Positions 2,641 through 24,192 of a stretch of 25,423 nt of DNA are shown here, one piece after another (position 1 is the stretch's first letter; each line of letters begins with the position of its first letter). The notes under the pieces are model-generated. The model was given only the letters and a program-made list of their open reading frames with translations. It did no database searches and was not told the DNA's origin. Position numbers and translations under genes: made by a program. The stretch covers positions 1-25,423 of IMG/VR virus record IMGVR_UViG_3300046718_000123; one strand, given 5' to 3'. The DNA comes from a virus.

Positions 2641-2949
2641 ATGGCAGCCCGCACCAAGCGCACCGAACTGGACAAGGAATGGCGGTCGAGAATCCAGACA
2701 GGTGTGATACTGAAACGCCTTCAAGATCATTTGTCTGGCGCGCTCGAATTGAGCACAACGCAAATCAAAGCCGCCGAGATTCTGCTTCGCAAATCCATCC
2801 CCGATTTGAGCGCGACCACGATCAGCGGCGATGCTGACAATCCCCTCGCTGTCGAAGTCACCGACGCCCTCGCTTCCCTGCTTCAACGACCTGCTGTTGC
2901 AGATGGGGAAGAAGGAATTGCGGGCGCGAATGGCAGCACTGTCCAATGA
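2641..2949 (+). CDS. terS: Terminase small subunit
   Basis: The 102-residue product begins MAARTKRTELDKEW and contains the segment IKAAEILLRKSIPDLSATTI (about residues 43-62), a hallmark of phage small terminase proteins. These bind the packaging site on phage DNA and recruit the large subunit. The C-terminus is acidic and Gly/Ala-rich. No strong ribosome binding site is seen; a TTG at 2632 is an alternative start three codons upstream. It overlaps the large terminase gene by 47 bases, which fits their joint role and order. It begins directly after the terminator, so it is probably the first late gene. Confidence 0.75.
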   Translation: MAARTKRTELDKEWRSRIQTGVILKRLQDHLSGALELSTTQIKAAEILLRKSIPDLSATTISGDADNPLAVEVTDALASLLQRPAVADGEEGIAGANGSTVQ

Positions 2950-4264
2950 GCAAGCTTACGCATTGCTCTACAGTTGGGAATTCTGGGCGCGACCAGATCA
3001 GCGATTGCCCCCCGGCAACTGGCCTGGATGGCTCTTGCTCGCCGGCCGCGGATTCGGCAAAACTCGCACAGGCGCGGAGGTCGTCCGATCTTGGGCGCGT
3101 CATTTCCGATTCGTCAACCTTATCGCCGCAACAAGCGATGATGCTCGCGACATTATGGTCGAAGGCGAGTCGGGAATTCTGGCTATATGTCCGCGGCACG
3201 AGCGGCCGTTCTATCGTACGTCTAAATCACGCCTTGAATGGCCTAATGGCAGCCGCACGCTCATATTCACCGCCGACGAGCCGGAAAGATTGCGCGGCAA
3301 GCAGCACGAAAAATTGTGGGCCGACGAAGTCGCAGCGTGGCGCTATCCCGAATCATGGGATCAAGCCATGATGGGTTTGCGCCTCGGCAAAAATCCTCAA
3401 GTCGTTGTCACCACGACACCGCGCCCGACGCCGTTGGTGCGTGAGTTGATCGCGTCGCCAGGTTGGATCGTCACGCGGGGAACAACGTATGACAACCGTG
3501 AAAATCTCGCGCGCAAATTCTTTGACAAGGTCATCACTAAGTACGAAGGCACCAGACTCGGGCGCCAGGAACTCAACGCCGAATTGCTCGACGATAATCC
3601 GCGTGCGCTTTGGCAGCGAGACAACATCGACCGATTTCGTTGTAACGTTGCGCCGACTCTTTCGCGCGTTGTCGTCGGACTCGACCCCAACGTAAAAAAC
3701 AGGGATCGCGTCGAGCTCGCCAAGTCATCTGACATTCTTGACGAGGCCGGCGTCGTTGTCGCTGGCACTGCCTACGTCGACAACAAGCAGCATTTTTTCG
3801 TGCTCGGCGATTACTCGCTCGACGAAGGGCCGAATGTGTGGGGCGGCGCTGCGGTCAAGGCATACCGCGATCATTCCGCAGATCGCATCGTCGGCGAAGT
3901 GAACAACGGCGGCGACATGGTCGAGGCGACCATCCGCAACGTCGATCAGAACGTCAGCTATAAATCCGTGACCGCATCGCGCGGCAAGGCAATCCGCGCC
4001 GAGCCGATCGCAGCTTTGTACGAGCAAGGTCGCGTGCATCACGTCGGCAGTTTTCCGAAACTCGAAGACGAAATGTGCGACTTCGATCCGATCACCACGA
4101 CGAAATCGCCCAACCGCATGGACGCGCTTGTGTGGGCACTCACCGAATTGTCGGCCGATGATTCGACCGGCATGTTGGAATTCATGCGCGGCCAGGCATC
4201 CGCCGTGCAGCCTGTCGCACCGAAGTATCCGACTCCGACTATCGTCACCGGCTGGCCCGGTTGA
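2903..4264 (+). CDS. terL: Terminase large subunit (packaging ATPase and nuclease)
   Basis: Numbered from ATG 2903 (453 aa), the ATPase shows Walker A GRGFGKT at about residues 48-54, Walker B LWADE with catalytic Glu about 142, and the coupling motif VVTTTPRP about 168-175. The C-terminal RNase H-like nuclease starts at VVGLDPN (Asp about 261), with VGEVNNGGDMV and SPNRMDALVWAL further on. This is a T4 gp17-like/Terminase_6 protein that pumps DNA into the prohead and cuts it. ATGs at 2831 and 2930 are alternatives; 2903 is chosen because related proteins usually start about 25-30 residues before the ALLYSWEFWARP segment. None of the three has a clear ribosome binding site. It overlaps terS. 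Confidence 0.95.
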   Translation: MGKKELRARMAALSNEQAYALLYSWEFWARPDQRLPPGNWPGWLLLAGRGFGKTRTGAEVVRSWARHFRFVNLIAATSDDARDIMVEGESGILAICPRHERPFYRTSKSRLEWPNGSRTLIFTADEPERLRGKQHEKLWADEVAAWRYPESWDQAMMGLRLGKNPQVVVTTTPRPTPLVRELIASPGWIVTRGTTYDNRENLARKFFDKVITKYEGTRLGRQELNAELLDDNPRALWQRDNIDRFRCNVAPTLSRVVVGLDPNVKNRDRVELAKSSDILDEAGVVVAGTAYVDNKQHFFVLGDYSLDEGPNVWGGAAVKAYRDHSADRIVGEVNNGGDMVEATIRNVDQNVSYKSVTASRGKAIRAEPIAALYEQGRVHHVGSFPKLEDEMCDFDPITTTKSPNRMDALVWALTELSADDSTGMLEFMRGQASAVQPVAPKYPTPTIVTGWPG

Positions 4265-4276
4265 AAGGAAATTGAA

Positions 4277-4621
4277 ATGGCAAACGTCACACTCAATGCA
4301 CCGGCCGGCGCCGTGGGCGCTGTCATCGGCAGCGATGGCAATTCATACGCGATCAGCGCGGGCACGGTCAGCATTCCTTCGAACGCGGTGGGGCCGGGGC
4401 TGTTCGCCGCCGGCTACACGTTTTCCGCTGGGACCACAGGAAAAACCGGCCTCACCGGTAGCACCGGACCCACAGGCGGGGCAGGCGCAGCCGGTGCCAA
4501 AGGTGGCACAGGTGGAACCGGAACGACCGGCACAACCGGATCGTCGACGGGCAACACCGGGGCGACGGGTGTGACGGGTCAGACCGGCAACACCGGACCT
4601 ACCGGCGCGACGGGGAGCTAA
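4277..4621 (+). CDS. Short collagen-like protein A
   Basis: A 114-residue protein with a globular N-terminal part (about residues 1-50, [14 protein letters not shown] start) and a C-terminal run of Gly-X-Thr/Ala triplets (about 52-113), as in bacterial and phage collagen-like proteins. Few prolines are present; Thr and Ala dominate, as is usual in prokaryotic collagens. An AAAGGAA ribosome binding site lies 6 bases before ATG. It is paralogous to the next gene: both share MA, APA, a DG turn and a TL/SIP segment before the triplets. Such proteins often form trimeric stalks or flexible fibres on virions; a head- or tail-decoration role is inferred. Confidence 0.75.
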
Positions 4622-4624
4622 CCG

Positions 4625-4972
4625 ATGGCCGACCTTATCTTCGATGCACCGGCCGCATATGTCGGCCAAAATGTCGCGGTCGACGGGCAGATGATCGCCG
4701 TCGCATCCGATGGCACGCTGACGCTGCCCGCGGGGACGTATACGCAAAACGTCATCGCGTCGCTGTTGTCCGCGGGTTTCAACTGGCAGCATGGGCCAAC
4801 CGGCGCGCTCGGCGGCAATCCTGCGACCGGATCAACCGGCACGACAGGCACAACCGGCACGACAGGCAGCACCGGCTCGACCGGCAACACGGGCCATGCA
4901 GGCGGCCCGACGGGCGTTACCGGTGGCACAGGTGGCACGGGCTGGACCGGTCACGCAGGCCCGCACGGATGA
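4625..4972 (+). CDS. Short collagen-like protein B (paralogue of A)
   Basis: A 115-residue protein built like its upstream neighbour: N-terminal globular part (about residues 1-55, [14 protein letters not shown] start) and Gly-X-Thr triplets from about 57 to the end, with one register break near HAGGPTG. A GGGGAG ribosome binding site sits 7 bases before ATG. Similar length, start and layout suggest tandem duplication. Its stop overlaps the next start (ATGA at 4969-4972). It is probably a virion surface component, possibly assembling with A, but no direct evidence for location exists in the sequence. Confidence 0.75.
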
Positions 4973-5142: not shown

Positions 5143-10222
<5,080 letters not shown>

Positions 10223-19670: not shown

Positions 19671-20456
19671 ATGGCAATCGACTTTTTTGGTGCAGGAGTG
19701 CTTTTCGCGACCCCGACGTTTGACGCGAGCGGCGCCGCAATCGCCGTTCCGTCGCCGGTGCAATTCGGAATCGTGCAGGACGTTACCATCGACGATACGG
19801 CCGACATCAAGGAACTTTACGGGGCGAATCAGTACCCCGTCGACATCGGCCGCGGCAAAGCAAAGCTGATGATAAAGTGCAAACAGGCGCAATTCTCGGC
19901 CGAGCTTTTCAACACGATCTACTACGGGCAAACGCTGACGGCCGCTTATCATGCCGTGCTCGCCGATTCAGTAGGCACGGCGATCCCGACCGGCGCCGGG
20001 GCAACGTCGATCCACATCACGCCAACCGCGCCGACCGGTGGCACTAGTACCTATGTCGCCGACTTGGGCGTGCAGGATGGCAACGGCGTGCCGTATATAC
20101 GCGTCGCGAGCTCGCCCACATCGGGCCAATATGCGCTGACCGGCGCGACTTACTCTTTCAGCGACATCGACGTCGGAAAAATCGTGTTCATCAATTACGA
20201 GTACAGCAATGCGACGAACCCCGGCACCGGGAAGCTGCTACAGATCAATAACATTCCCATGGGACAGGTTCCGGTATTCTCGGCGCAGTTTTTCAACACG
20301 CGCCGCGGGCGTTCGGTCTGGCGCAAGTTCCCGGCTTGCGTGGCGACGAAACTGTCGATGGACTTCAAGAATGACGATTTCGTCATTCCCGATTTCGAGA
20401 TCGCGGCGTTTGCCGACAGCAATAACGTCGTGCAATACCTGTCCGAGAGCGAATAG
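19671..20456 (+). CDS. Major tail (tube) protein with inserted domain
   Basis: The 261-residue protein starts IDFFGAGVLFATPTF and contains GIVQDVTIDDTADIKELYGANQYPVDIGRGKAKLMIKCK-like strands (split across about 33-71), typical of siphovirus tail tube subunits, and a C-terminal tube segment FSAQFFNTRRGRSVWRKFPACVATKLSMDFK. Residues about 96-181 form an insert with YIRVASSPTSGQYALTGATY and IVFINYEYSN, closely similar to an insert of the connector at 17172-17399. Position between terminator and tail chaperone fits. Hundreds of copies stack into the tail tube; the insert would decorate the outside. No strong ribosome binding site. Confidence 0.85.
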   Translation: MAIDFFGAGVLFATPTFDASGAAIAVPSPVQFGIVQDVTIDDTADIKELYGANQYPVDIGRGKAKLMIKCKQAQFSAELFNTIYYGQTLTAAYHAVLADSVGTAIPTGAGATSIHITPTAPTGGTSTYVADLGVQDGNGVPYIRVASSPTSGQYALTGATYSFSDIDVGKIVFINYEYSNATNPGTGKLLQINNIPMGQVPVFSAQFFNTRRGRSVWRKFPACVATKLSMDFKNDDFVIPDFEIAAFADSNNVVQYLSESE

Positions 20457-20458
20457 CC

Positions 20459-20824
20459 GTGAGCAACGAAAGCGGTAACGGCAAATACGCGCCACGACCG
20501 GGGAATATTCCCGGCGTGGCGATGAACCTCGGCGGAATTGATTTCGTGCTCGCGCCGCTAGGGCTGCGCTTGATACGCGAATCGCAGGCAAAGACGAAGG
20601 AACTACAGAAAAAAGCGGCCGAGGGAATAGACGTCGATTCGGAATATTACGCTTTGAACATTGACAGCGTATTCGAATCGTTGCGGCGAAATTATCCAGA
20701 AATCACACGCGATGAAGTCGAATCGCTCATCGACGCAGGCAATTTGCCGGATTGCGTCAATGCCATCATGGGAGCATCGGGGCTTAAAAAGGTAACGCCG
20801 GGGGAGCTGAAACCGGGGGGTTAA
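20459..20824 (+). CDS. Tail assembly chaperone G
   Basis: GTG 20459 starts a 121-residue product. It has GNIPGVAMNLGGIDFVLAPLGLRLIRE and a helical middle, then FESLRRNYPEITRDEVESLIDAGNLPDCVNAIMGASGL, a conserved C-terminal region of gpG-like chaperones. Such proteins coat the tape measure during tail assembly. The frame ends GGG GGT TAA, and the last seven coding bases form a -1 slippery site, so a fraction of ribosomes should continue into the T frame to make G-T fusion. Placement between the major tail protein and the tape measure is exactly as in lambda. Confidence 0.8.
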   Translation: MSNESGNGKYAPRPGNIPGVAMNLGGIDFVLAPLGLRLIRESQAKTKELQKKAAEGIDVDSEYYALNIDSVFESLRRNYPEITRDEVESLIDAGNLPDCVNAIMGASGLKKVTPGELKPGG

Positions 20825-21111
20825 GCGAAGTCGATTGGGACACCGAATACGCCACCATCATCACGGCTACCGGCTGGACGTGGGAATACATCGACGAATT
20901 CGTGACGCTGCCCCGGTTCAATGCGCTCCGCTCCTATTGGCTCTCAAAGCCGCCCGTTCACATCACGGCGGCGCTATTCGCCGGAATCGAACCGGCGCGC
21001 GGTAACTCGCGCCCTCTGGCGAGCGTTACGCCGATTGACAATGCGTCAATCACCCGCGACATGCACACCGATCCGCGCAAGTTGACATGGCGAGGCATTC
21101 GCAATGGCTGA
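20459..21111 (+). CDS. Tail assembly chaperone G-T fusion via -1 frameshift
   Basis: After slipping back one base at 20815-20821, translation continues from TTA at 20821 with LSEVDWDTEYATIITATGW and EYIDEFVTLPRFNALRSYW to TGA 21109-21111. The T frame is open from 20788 to the end but has a stop at 20785-20787, so the shift must occur between these; it has no good start of its own (only GTG at 20902). The fusion would be about 217 residues. WEYIDEFVTLPRFNALRSYW-type sequence is typical of the T part of these fusions. The end overlaps the tape measure start by 8 bases. The frameshift itself is inferred, not demonstrated. Confidence 0.7.
20815..20821 (+). other. -1 programmed ribosomal frameshift site (GGGGGGT)
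   Basis: G GGG GGT in the G reading frame fits the X XXY YYZ slippery pattern: both the GGG and the GGT codons re-pair well one base back. It stands directly before the zero-frame TAA (20822-20824). No downstream pseudoknot was examined. The site is the expected location for G to G-T shifting. Confidence 0.7.
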
Positions 21112-23593
21112 TAACGTAGAGGTCAAACTTGGCGCCGATGCCGGCCCGGCAAAAGCGGGGATGGAGGACGCAGCGCGTTCAATCCAGGCGTCGCTGCAGG
21201 GCATTCAGAAGGCGCTCGAAAACTTCAGCACGACGAATAAGAAAGCGCGCGACGACGCGATCAAGAATAACGCGGACCTGTCGCGCACCTTTCTGGAATT
21301 GAAGGCGAGCGCGGAAGGCGGATTCAACGGAATCATCGGCGTAATCGAGCGTTTCCGCGGCGTATGGATCAGCCTTGCCGGTTTGCTCGCTGGCGGGATG
21401 CTCTGGAAGGCCGCGATAGATCAAGTTTTGGAAATGAATGAAAGCGTCCGAAAGTTGCAAATAACTTTTGGAATGCTTTCAGATCAAGCGACGACTACCG
21501 CCGTTGCGTTGAAAATCATCGGCAAGAGCGGCGACGATTTTTCCGCAATGGGTATGAAGCTCGCCCGCCAATTGAAAATGGACGAACAAGGCATAAAAGA
21601 CCTCGGCGTCCAGACGCGCGACACGGCAACCGGCGCATTGTTGCCGCTCGACGTCATCATGCAAAACGGTTTTAAGACGATGCAGGATTACCGCGCGGGA
21701 GCGGACCAAGACATCGTCGCATTGAAACTGTTCGGGCGCAATGTCGGCGACGTAGTGGAAACGATGCTTATGATGCCGGCGGCGTTGCAGCGGGCGAAGG
21801 ATTTGCAAAAAGAACTCGGCATTGAATGGGGGCCAGACAAACAGGCTCAGGTAAAAGCCTATCAATTAGAAGTCGGAGCATTCCAAGTTGTGCTCGGCCA
21901 TATCGGCGAGGAAATCGGCATGGCCGTCATGCCGCAACTGATGACCCTCGCGAAGTATTTCAACGACGTCGGGCCGTCGGCGGCGGAATTCATTATTAAG
22001 GCGGTGAAGCTCGTTATCGCTACCATCGACGCGCTGGCAACGGGGGCAAAAGAGGATTATTTGATCGTCAAAGGAACGTGGGACAACCTCGTCGTTGCCG
22101 CGAGCGCGCTATGGGCGGGGATGAAAGACGCCTTCGAAACTGGCGGCACGAATATATCGAATATTTGGGCCGACATGAATAAGCGGATTCTAAAAAACAC
22201 GCTGGAAACGAATGCGGCCGTGCTCGGATTGGAGCACGATCTGATTCTCCGTTTGAACGCGCTTGACGAAACGCACACGTCAAAACCGGGCGCAATACCG
22301 GGATTCGGGAGCGGGGGAAAGAGCGCGCCAACCGGGAAACCAACCGGACCTGCGAGTGAGGTTGCAGATTGGGACAAGGCACTTAAGGCAGCGCAGGATT
22401 ATTACAACGATTTGAAAGACGCGCAAGGTAGTTTCGAGCGTTGGTCGGAATCAATGACGCGCGATTATTGGCAAGAGGTACTCGACAATTTCAAATTGTC
22501 TGCGGACGACCGCGCGGCCCTGGACCACAAGATGCACGAAGCCAATAACGTCGTGCGCAAGCAGGAATTTGATGCGGAGATTGCTAACCTCGACAAGATC
22601 GCCGCCGGTTACAAGTTCAACTACGCGGAGCGTATCCGGCTTGCCGAGCAAGCCGCCGCTATCGTCGCCGACAAATACGGATTTGAGAGCGCGGAATATG
22701 CTAGAGCATCCGCAAAGATCATCGCGCTGCAACAGCAGCAAGAGGCGCAGGAGCAACGACTTGCGGACCTTGCGCGCAAGCGTATCGAGACAATCGCCAA
22801 TTTCGAATATCAAACAAAACTCAACGGCCTGAATCAACAGCTCGCATTGCGGCAGATCAACGTCCAGCAAGAGCTCGCGCTAGAGCAGCAATACCTCGAC
22901 GAAAAACTCGCGATTGATATCAAGGCAATCAACGACGAAATCGCGGCGGCGGGACCGGAAGGCGATCCGGTCAAGTTGCAAGCATTGAACGACAAGAAAC
23001 TGCAATTGGAATTGCAGTATCAGACGGCAAAGACGGCCATTGCCAACAAGGCCGAGCAGGATCGGATGCAATATGTTTTGCAAGCCGAGCAAGCGGTCGA
23101 AAATACGTTCTCGACGATGTTGTCCGACTTGATGAACCGCACGAAATCATGGAAGGACGTGATGCTCGACGCGGTAGCGTCCATTACCAAAGCCCTCAAT
23201 GATCTCGTCGCCAAGAAGCTCGCGCAGCAAATCTTTGGTGCGGGGACCGGCGGCAACGATATCCTCGGATCAATTTTCGGTAGCCTGTTCGGTGCTGGTG
23301 GCGGAAGCGCCGCAGCGGCCGGCAGCGCGCTCGACAACCCTTTCCTTTCGATCTTCGGCGGCATTGCGTCGTATGACGTTGGCACGCCCTACGTCCCGCG
23401 CGATACGTTGGCGCTCGTGCATCGTGGCGAAGCGATCATCCCGGCGGCGCAAAACAAGGGGCGCCCCGGCGGCTCGCCGCTCGCGGTGACGAATCATTTT
23501 CACATTACCGGCCCGGTCGATTCGCGCACGCAGGATCAGATTGCCGCCGCTGCCGCACGCGCGACGCAGCGCGCCATGTATAGGACGCTCTGA
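21104..23593 (+). CDS. Tail tape measure protein (lambda family)
   Basis: The 829-residue protein sits after the chaperones and is the longest gene in the window. Its N-terminus is helical and charged (DAARSIQASLQGIQKALENF), followed by a hydrophobic helix (about residues 86-105, GVWISLAGLLAGGMLWKAAI) and other hydrophobic patches around 280-320. A long Gln/Ala/Glu-rich coiled coil spans roughly 470-690. The C-terminus has FSTMLSDLMNRTKSWKDVMLDAVASITKAL, a lambda gpH-type tape measure domain, and PYVPRDTLALVHRGEAIIPAAQN, a common tape measure ending. It sets tail length; at about 1.5 angstrom per residue an approximately 120-nm tail would result (estimate). No lytic domain was recognised. ATG overlaps the T stop. 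Confidence 0.92.
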   Translation: MADNVEVKLGADAGPAKAGMEDAARSIQASLQGIQKALENFSTTNKKARDDAIKNNADLSRTFLELKASAEGGFNGIIGVIERFRGVWISLAGLLAGGMLWKAAIDQVLEMNESVRKLQITFGMLSDQATTTAVALKIIGKSGDDFSAMGMKLARQLKMDEQGIKDLGVQTRDTATGALLPLDVIMQNGFKTMQDYRAGADQDIVALKLFGRNVGDVVETMLMMPAALQRAKDLQKELGIEWGPDKQAQVKAYQLEVGAFQVVLGHIGEEIGMAVMPQLMTLAKYFNDVGPSAAEFIIKAVKLVIATIDALATGAKEDYLIVKGTWDNLVVAASALWAGMKDAFETGGTNISNIWADMNKRILKNTLETNAAVLGLEHDLILRLNALDETHTSKPGAIPGFGSGGKSAPTGKPTGPASEVADWDKALKAAQDYYNDLKDAQGSFERWSESMTRDYWQEVLDNFKLSADDRAALDHKMHEANNVVRKQEFDAEIANLDKIAAGYKFNYAERIRLAEQAAAIVADKYGFESAEYARASAKIIALQQQQEAQEQRLADLARKRIETIANFEYQTKLNGLNQQLALRQINVQQELALEQQYLDEKLAIDIKAINDEIAAAGPEGDPVKLQALNDKKLQLELQYQTAKTAIANKAEQDRMQYVLQAEQAVENTFSTMLSDLMNRTKSWKDVMLDAVASITKALNDLVAKKLAQQIFGAGTGGNDILGSIFGSLFGAGGGSAAAAGSALDNPFLSIFGGIASYDVGTPYVPRDTLALVHRGEAIIPAAQNKGRPGGSPLAVTNHFHITGPVDSRTQDQIAAAAARATQRAMYRTL

Positions 23594-24192
23594 TGGCATT
23601 CCTTGAATCCCCGCGCTTTCCAGATGAAATAGCCTTTTGGGCGGTCGGCGGCCGCGGCTTCCAGACGGTTGTCGTTGAAACCTACGGCGGCGACGAATAC
23701 CGCAACGCGGCCTGGCAGATCGCGCGCGGCGAATGGGACTTCTCGGACGGTCTGCGGAGCGTAGACGCCAACCACTACACCGGACTCGCGCAAAAGCTCT
23801 TGCGTAATTTCTTTCTCGTCAGTTATGGGCAATTGAACGCCTTTCGCTTCAAGGATTTTTCAGACTATGGCGATGAGGGGCAAGGCTATTTCGTCGGCCT
23901 GACCGCGACGACGTTTCAAATGTGGAAACACTACGTCAGCGGCGCGCTGTCCTACGATCAGCCGATATACAAGCCGGTTTCGGCGACCGTCGTCGTCACC
24001 GGCGGCTCGGCGCCCGTAGTCGATTACACGACGGGAATCGTCACCGTGTCGAGCGGAACGCCGACATCGTGGACGGGACAATTCGACAAGCCGGTGCGAT
24101 TCGGTGGCGATCTGCCGAAGATGGGGCCAGACCCGTCGGGCGCGCTCTACAACTGGCAGGGCATCAAACTGATCGAAGTGCGGAATCCGTGA
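23593..24192 (+). CDS. DUF2460 family distal tail protein
   Basis: The 199-residue protein begins MAFLESPRFPDEIAFWAVGG and contains GYFVGLTATTFQMWKHYVSG, YKPVSATVVVTGG and DYTTGIVTV, then TGQFDKPVRFGGD, all typical of the DUF2460 family (TIGR02217, gene transfer agent gp12). These proteins form the ring at the tail tip that links tube to the hub. ATG overlaps the tape measure stop (TGATG). The next gene is DUF2163, reproducing the gene transfer agent gp12-gp13 order. Confidence 0.9.
   Translation: MAFLESPRFPDEIAFWAVGGRGFQTVVVETYGGDEYRNAAWQIARGEWDFSDGLRSVDANHYTGLAQKLLRNFFLVSYGQLNAFRFKDFSDYGDEGQGYFVGLTATTFQMWKHYVSGALSYDQPIYKPVSATVVVTGGSAPVVDYTTGIVTVSSGTPTSWTGQFDKPVRFGGDLPKMGPDPSGALYNWQGIKLIEVRNP

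Follow-up and report, generated by a model that had tools for sequence, protein, structure and literature searches.

At which bases do ribosomes change frame between the short tail assembly chaperone gene G and the open -1 frame T that follows it? This question is raised by a 25,423-nt stretch of viral DNA (IMG/VR virus record IMGVR_UViG_3300046718_000123, positions 1 to 25,423; hereafter, the window), in which the overlap of the two frames holds two G-rich heptamers, GGGGGAG and GGGGGGT (Table 1). A preliminary description of this DNA had assigned the slip to GGGGGGT and had overlooked GGGGGAG, which lies in the same overlap and in the same slip phase.

Table 1. Features of the G/T locus and its immediate neighbors, in window coordinates.
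Feature	Position	Strand	Size	Remarks
Tail tube (major tail) protein gene	19671..20456	+	261 aa	From AlphaFold model and structure matches
G, short tail assembly chaperone ORF	20459..20824	+	121 aa	GTG start, TAA stop
T, open -1 frame	20788..21111	+		Reachable only via frameshift; first start GTG 20902
G/T frame overlap	20788..20824	+	37 nt	
GGGGGAG, phase G GGG GAG	20800..20806	+		Proposed main -1 slip site; from conservation in relatives
GGGGGGT, phase G GGG GGT	20815..20821	+		Lineage-specific; possible secondary slip site
TAA stop of G	20822..20824	+		Abuts GGGGGGT; 15 nt after GGGGGAG
Probable tape measure gene	21104..23593	+	829 aa	From position directly after T and length

Gene Products and Layout of the Locus

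The AlphaFold model of the 261-aa product encoded upstream of G (pLDDT 77.7) matches phage tail tube proteins both in Foldseek (8xkn, E 1.9e-10) and in VIA (Z 12-13 over 218 residues), and the gene is, on the basis of this model, predicted to encode a tail-tube fold. The G/T pair sits between this gene, recognized by fold, and a probable tape measure ORF recognized by position and length only. The 829-aa product returned no significant family or PDB sequence match; searches of PDB sequences with the G profile and with the tail tube product likewise gave nothing significant. G and T belong to two families of unknown function, phrog_7947 (E 2.3e-15) and phrog_8018 (E 3.3e-9), respectively. The AlphaFold model of G (pLDDT 87.3) found no match in the PDB with Foldseek, and the top row of its VIA PDB list is YqbN (3KLU) at a weak Z of 4.8; its matches among viral predicted structures include many annotated tail assembly chaperones, with weak scores, and Pfam Phage_TAC families gave five matches among the relatives of G, again weak (E 0.001-0.005). 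We interpret G and T as a probable pair of tail assembly chaperone genes from a long-tailed phage, with predicted programmed -1 frameshifting.

Elsewhere in the window, the gene directly after the tape measure gene (23593-24192) has a product matching phrog_2913, labelled glycoside hydrolase (E 1.1e-36), and its position would fit a tail tip protein. In the head module, collagen-like ORFs with glycine repeats (GXT/GNT) lie on both sides of the portal gene (4277-4972 and 6900-7931).

Evidence for a G-T Fusion

The preliminary description had stated that the -1 frame is open, that it encodes T-like sequence with no good start of its own, and, as a prediction, that it is joined to G by -1 frameshifting, and all three statements are supported here. 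The frame is bounded by TAA just before it (20785-20787) and by TGA at its end (21109-21111), and the first ATG, GTG, or TTG codon within it lies in the conserved core of T. No separate start is available ahead of this core, and the shift is therefore confined to the overlap of the two frames. In comparison with its nearest divergent relative (L011), the T frame shows a dN of 0.24 and a dS of 0.76 across 92 codons. A comparable excess of synonymous change is absent from the other two frames, and T is under purifying selection. T is thus a real part of a protein that has no start, which a G-T fusion explains, and we regard it as very likely that this fusion is real and arises through -1 frameshifting.

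It is very improbable that no ribosomal slippage takes place and that T is instead initiated independently, joined to G because RNA polymerase slips on runs of G, or simply an unused open frame. Runs of five and six G do exist at the locus, and G-rich motifs can serve in reporters as SD sequences for initiation in the -1 frame (PMC4066793); however, a start codon is missing ahead of the conserved core, T is conserved under purifying selection, and the slip-phase rule described below is exact over the clusters of relatives. We note also that an error of homopolymer sequencing is unlikely, as the same sequence is found in four other contigs, identical to the window here except for one substitution within gene G, at 20481, in one of them, with metagenome numbers so close that these contigs are perhaps not fully independent.

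Slip Motifs among the Relatives

Relatives were found by three scans keyed to the T protein and not to the slip site, and the count of slip motifs is therefore unbiased by the search. They returned 85 unique loci that contain the WTWEYID core, and clustering with a T-core identity cutoff of 80% gave 66 clusters, which share ancestry and so are not independent; a search of genome contigs with G alone returned zero relatives. G stands one base ahead of T, such that a -1 shift is needed, in 83 of the 85 loci.

Within the overlap, GGGGGAA or GGGGGAG (GGGGGAR) is present in 62 of these 83 loci and in 48 of the 66 clusters. Every one of the 49 occurrences in the clusters' overlaps is in the slip phase, G GGG GAR, with 0 in the other two phases, and the in-phase motif was counted 49 times in 1,206 overlap positions, compared to 3 times in the 5,344 positions counted upstream, in the body of G. 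It abuts the stop codon in L017, L042, and L140, where it is the sole listed slip motif in the overlap. Other heptamers occur in 15 further clusters, the alternatives seen in clusters without GGGGGAR being GGGAAAG, GGGAAAC, AAAAAAA, GGGGGGG, CCCAAAA, or AAACCCN, and three clusters contain no motif of a listed kind. The genome contigs matched by the relatives are proteobacterial (Magnetococcales, Geobacteraceae, Limnobacter, Paludibacterium, and others), and GGGGGAR, which is known from the tail chaperones of actinophages and is also dominant in this family of phages and prophages, is therefore not restricted to actinophages.

Several individual loci are of interest in their own right. Five that lack GGGGGAR (L012, L016, L018, L019, and L026) carry a C-run site (AAACCCC, AAACCCT, or GGACCCT) near, before the T core, which suggests a switch of slip site. 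In L093 (around 1480-1560), G ends in QGE-stop at GGA GAG TGA, GGGAGAG stands in place of the relatives' GGGGGAG, and T lies at +1/-2, making this locus a candidate for -2 frameshifting through GAG re-pairing on GAG, or else a sequencing error. In L051 (around 2920-3050, on the contig that also carries L129), G and T form one continuous frame that runs through an intact GGGGGAG. Either a -1 slip would here yield the short product, as in dnaX, or a single base has been gained or lost in the contig.

Assignment of the Slip Site

The zero-frame codons at the end of G in the window are ...ACG CCG GGG GAG CTG AAA CCG GGG GGT TAA. The preliminary description was exact in placing G GGG GGT in the zero frame directly before TAA, and correct that this heptamer is unlike the GGGAAAG of lambda. 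Its choice of GGGGGGT as the conserved slip site is nevertheless unsupported: relatives that keep both frames lack the heptamer in 64 of the 66 clusters, an outcome that the preliminary description itself had named as counter-evidence, and nearly all of these have another slip motif, mostly GGGGGAR. The two exceptions are the lineage of the window itself and a distant relative, L080, and GGGGGAG stands 15 nt upstream in both. Across the junction block, where the window and its nearest divergent relative (L006/L011) are 42% identical, GGGGGAG is aligned at 7/7 positions and GGGGGGT is absent. We note that the DNA of the G-T block as a whole (window 20520-21020) is about 50-65% identical to that of L006/L011, compared to about 81% in the flanks, with tail tube proteins that are 94% identical, which points either to mosaic exchange or to fast change inside the chaperone pair.

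Published data bear on the same choice. In a survey of 64 XXXYYYZ heptamers in E. coli, the lowest was G_GGG_GGU, which gave 0.018% without a stimulator, compared to a no-motif background of 0.055% (PMC4066793). GGGGGAA, in turn, is the single "fivetwo" motif in a set of SEA-PHAGES frameshift genes numbering about a thousand (PMC10885494), and has been proposed as the slip motif in corynephage phi16 (PMC5506516). In the literature library searched, no relevant paper was found on GGGGGGT as a site of frameshifting in tail genes. Because of the conservation and phase of GGGGGAR, the rarity of GGGGGGT, the E. coli survey, and the "fivetwo" precedent, we consider GGGGGAG at 20800-20806 to be the probable principal slip site, as predicted from sequence comparison.

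The converse assignment, in which GGGGGGT abutting TAA is the main site in the lineage of the window, appears unlikely. It has in its favor that GGGGGGT follows the canonical XXXYYYZ pattern in the zero-frame phase and lies immediately before a stop codon, whereas GGGGGAG departs from this pattern, its A-site tRNA forming a G-U pair at the middle position after the slip; that -1 frameshifting is reported to be stimulated by internal SD sequences located 8 to 11 nt upstream (PMC6321510), and GGGGGAG contains an SD-like GGAG 8 nt upstream of GGGGGGT; and that L080 has the same tandem layout. However, in the tail chaperones found, GGGGGGT never occurs without GGGGGAR upstream, it is the bottom-scoring heptamer of the E. 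coli survey, and the copy in L080 falls within a poly-glycine linker of T, such that composition may explain its presence there.

RNA structure does not favor either heptamer in the window, where no stable structure was found 3' of GGGGGAG or of GGGGGGT (z about +0.7 for both). Over the set of relatives, sequence 3' of the motif has a slightly higher predicted stability than control stretches taken upstream (mean z -0.83 vs -0.08, p 0.004).

A Possible Second Site

With GGGGGAG taken as the probable main site, GGGGGGT-TAA would be at most an auxiliary second slip site, and a secondary role of this kind is possible. The abutting stop codon may assist slippage there, as the preliminary description had suggested. 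The heptamer occurs once in the entire window, counting both strands, and GGGGGGT and GGGGGAR each have one in-phase case among the window's ~6,350 codon positions. When the G protein is held fixed and codons are drawn from the usage of the window, the chance of GGGGGGT at the end of G is 0.014, and that of any XXXYYYZ is 0.12. This low chance, and the recurrence of GGGGGGT at the same 15-nt spacing in L080, hint at a role for GGGGGGT. A scan of all viral contigs for GGGGGGT followed by TAGAYTGG returned 25 stretches, the sole tail chaperone among them being on the contig of L080, and among tail chaperones the tandem GGGGGAR-8 nt-GGGGGGTTAR was found in the lineage of the window and on the contig of L080 only. 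A related arrangement is present in L068, which has GGGGGAA and, 15 nt on, GGGGGAG-TAG; a tandem layout has arisen at least twice (the window and L080; L068), always with a spacing of 15 nt.

Two stronger roles for GGGGGGT can be weighed against these observations. The first, that both sites contribute comparably and produce two fusions of equal length with either AETGG or LKPGG at residues 117-121, is quite improbable. In its favor are L068 and the finding that secondary slip motifs after GGGGGAR abut the stop codon in 3 of 43 cases, compared to 2 of 312 positions elsewhere (p 0.014); this enrichment test is, however, post hoc and comprises five events. The second is a tandem signal, in which GGGGGAG would not only slip but also, being SD-like, stimulate a second slip at GGGGGGT, with the supply of release factor tuning the ratio of G to G-T; we put this forward as a speculative reading that is doubtful at present.

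Proposed Mechanism

Taking as a starting point the features that were computed directly (the ORF layout, the conservation of site and phase, the purifying selection acting on T, and the tail-tube neighbor), we infer the slippage itself, its level, and the roles of its products as follows. Most ribosomes would translate G and halt at its TAA codon, releasing the 121-aa protein, while a minority would move back by one base, chiefly at GGGGGAG. In this slip, the tRNA on GGG would re-pair with the preceding GGG, and the tRNA on GAG (Glu) would shift to GGA. Reading on in the -1 frame would then give a 217-aa G-T fusion with the junction ...KVTPGE-AETGGLSEVDW.... As GGGGGGT-TAA lies 15 nt downstream and leads into the same -1 frame, it may offer a second, weaker chance to slip; the fusion would have 217 residues from either site, and the two products would differ at residues 117-121 only. 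By analogy to lambda, for which the roles of G and T are reviewed in PMC5009743, G would coat the tape measure protein, whereas recruitment of the tail tube protein would fall to the T part.

The mechanism of frameshifting is already known, and what this locus contributes is a corrected site and an extension of the motif. It also illustrates that the best-looking XXXYYYZ heptamer can mislead, as the lowest-scoring canonical heptamer lies here 15 nt from a conserved, noncanonical one. In practical terms, the fusion product would probably escape detection if KPGG-LSEV were the only peptide sought.

Comparison with Known Systems

The frameshift proposed here is of the ordinary -1 type seen in tail chaperone genes, and GGGGGAG is its conserved site. 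As in lambda G/GT, a short G and a T in the -1 frame lie between the tail tube and tape measure genes and are fused by a -1 shift in their overlap; however, the G and T of the window have no sequence family in common with those of lambda, the slip site is GGGGGAG rather than GGGAAAG, and, unlike in lambda, the TAA codon follows the slip site at 15 nt and is abutted by a second heptamer of slip type. Burkholderia phage KL1 (gp18/gp19, PMC3483164) resembles the window in that a slip heptamer is predicted to abut the stop codon that ends the short tail protein, although the sequence there is GGGAAAC-TGA rather than GGGGGGT-TAA, and the window adds the conserved upstream site.

Homologous G with T at -1 and GGGGGAA is found in Acinetobacter phages 5W (MT349887) and MD-2021a and in Pseudomonas phage KT1 (PQ316073), all of them distant from the window at about 30-40% identity. 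In both Acinetobacter phages, G ends in GGGGGAA-stop, the overlap contains no other listed slip motif, and the records annotate T as a separate, uncharacterized protein from an internal start, with no fusion annotated; the record of KT1 carries no annotation. Among our loci, L151 (1199-1773) and L152 (1184-1767) are Acinetobacter phage records, in which GGGGGAA-stop predicts a G-T fusion that is unannotated. The "fivetwo" chaperone genes of actinophages (PRFect, PMC10885494; phi16, PMC5506516) form the same gene pair and have the same motif except for the last base, GGGGGAA as opposed to the GGGGGAG of the window, whose relatives match proteobacterial genome contigs.
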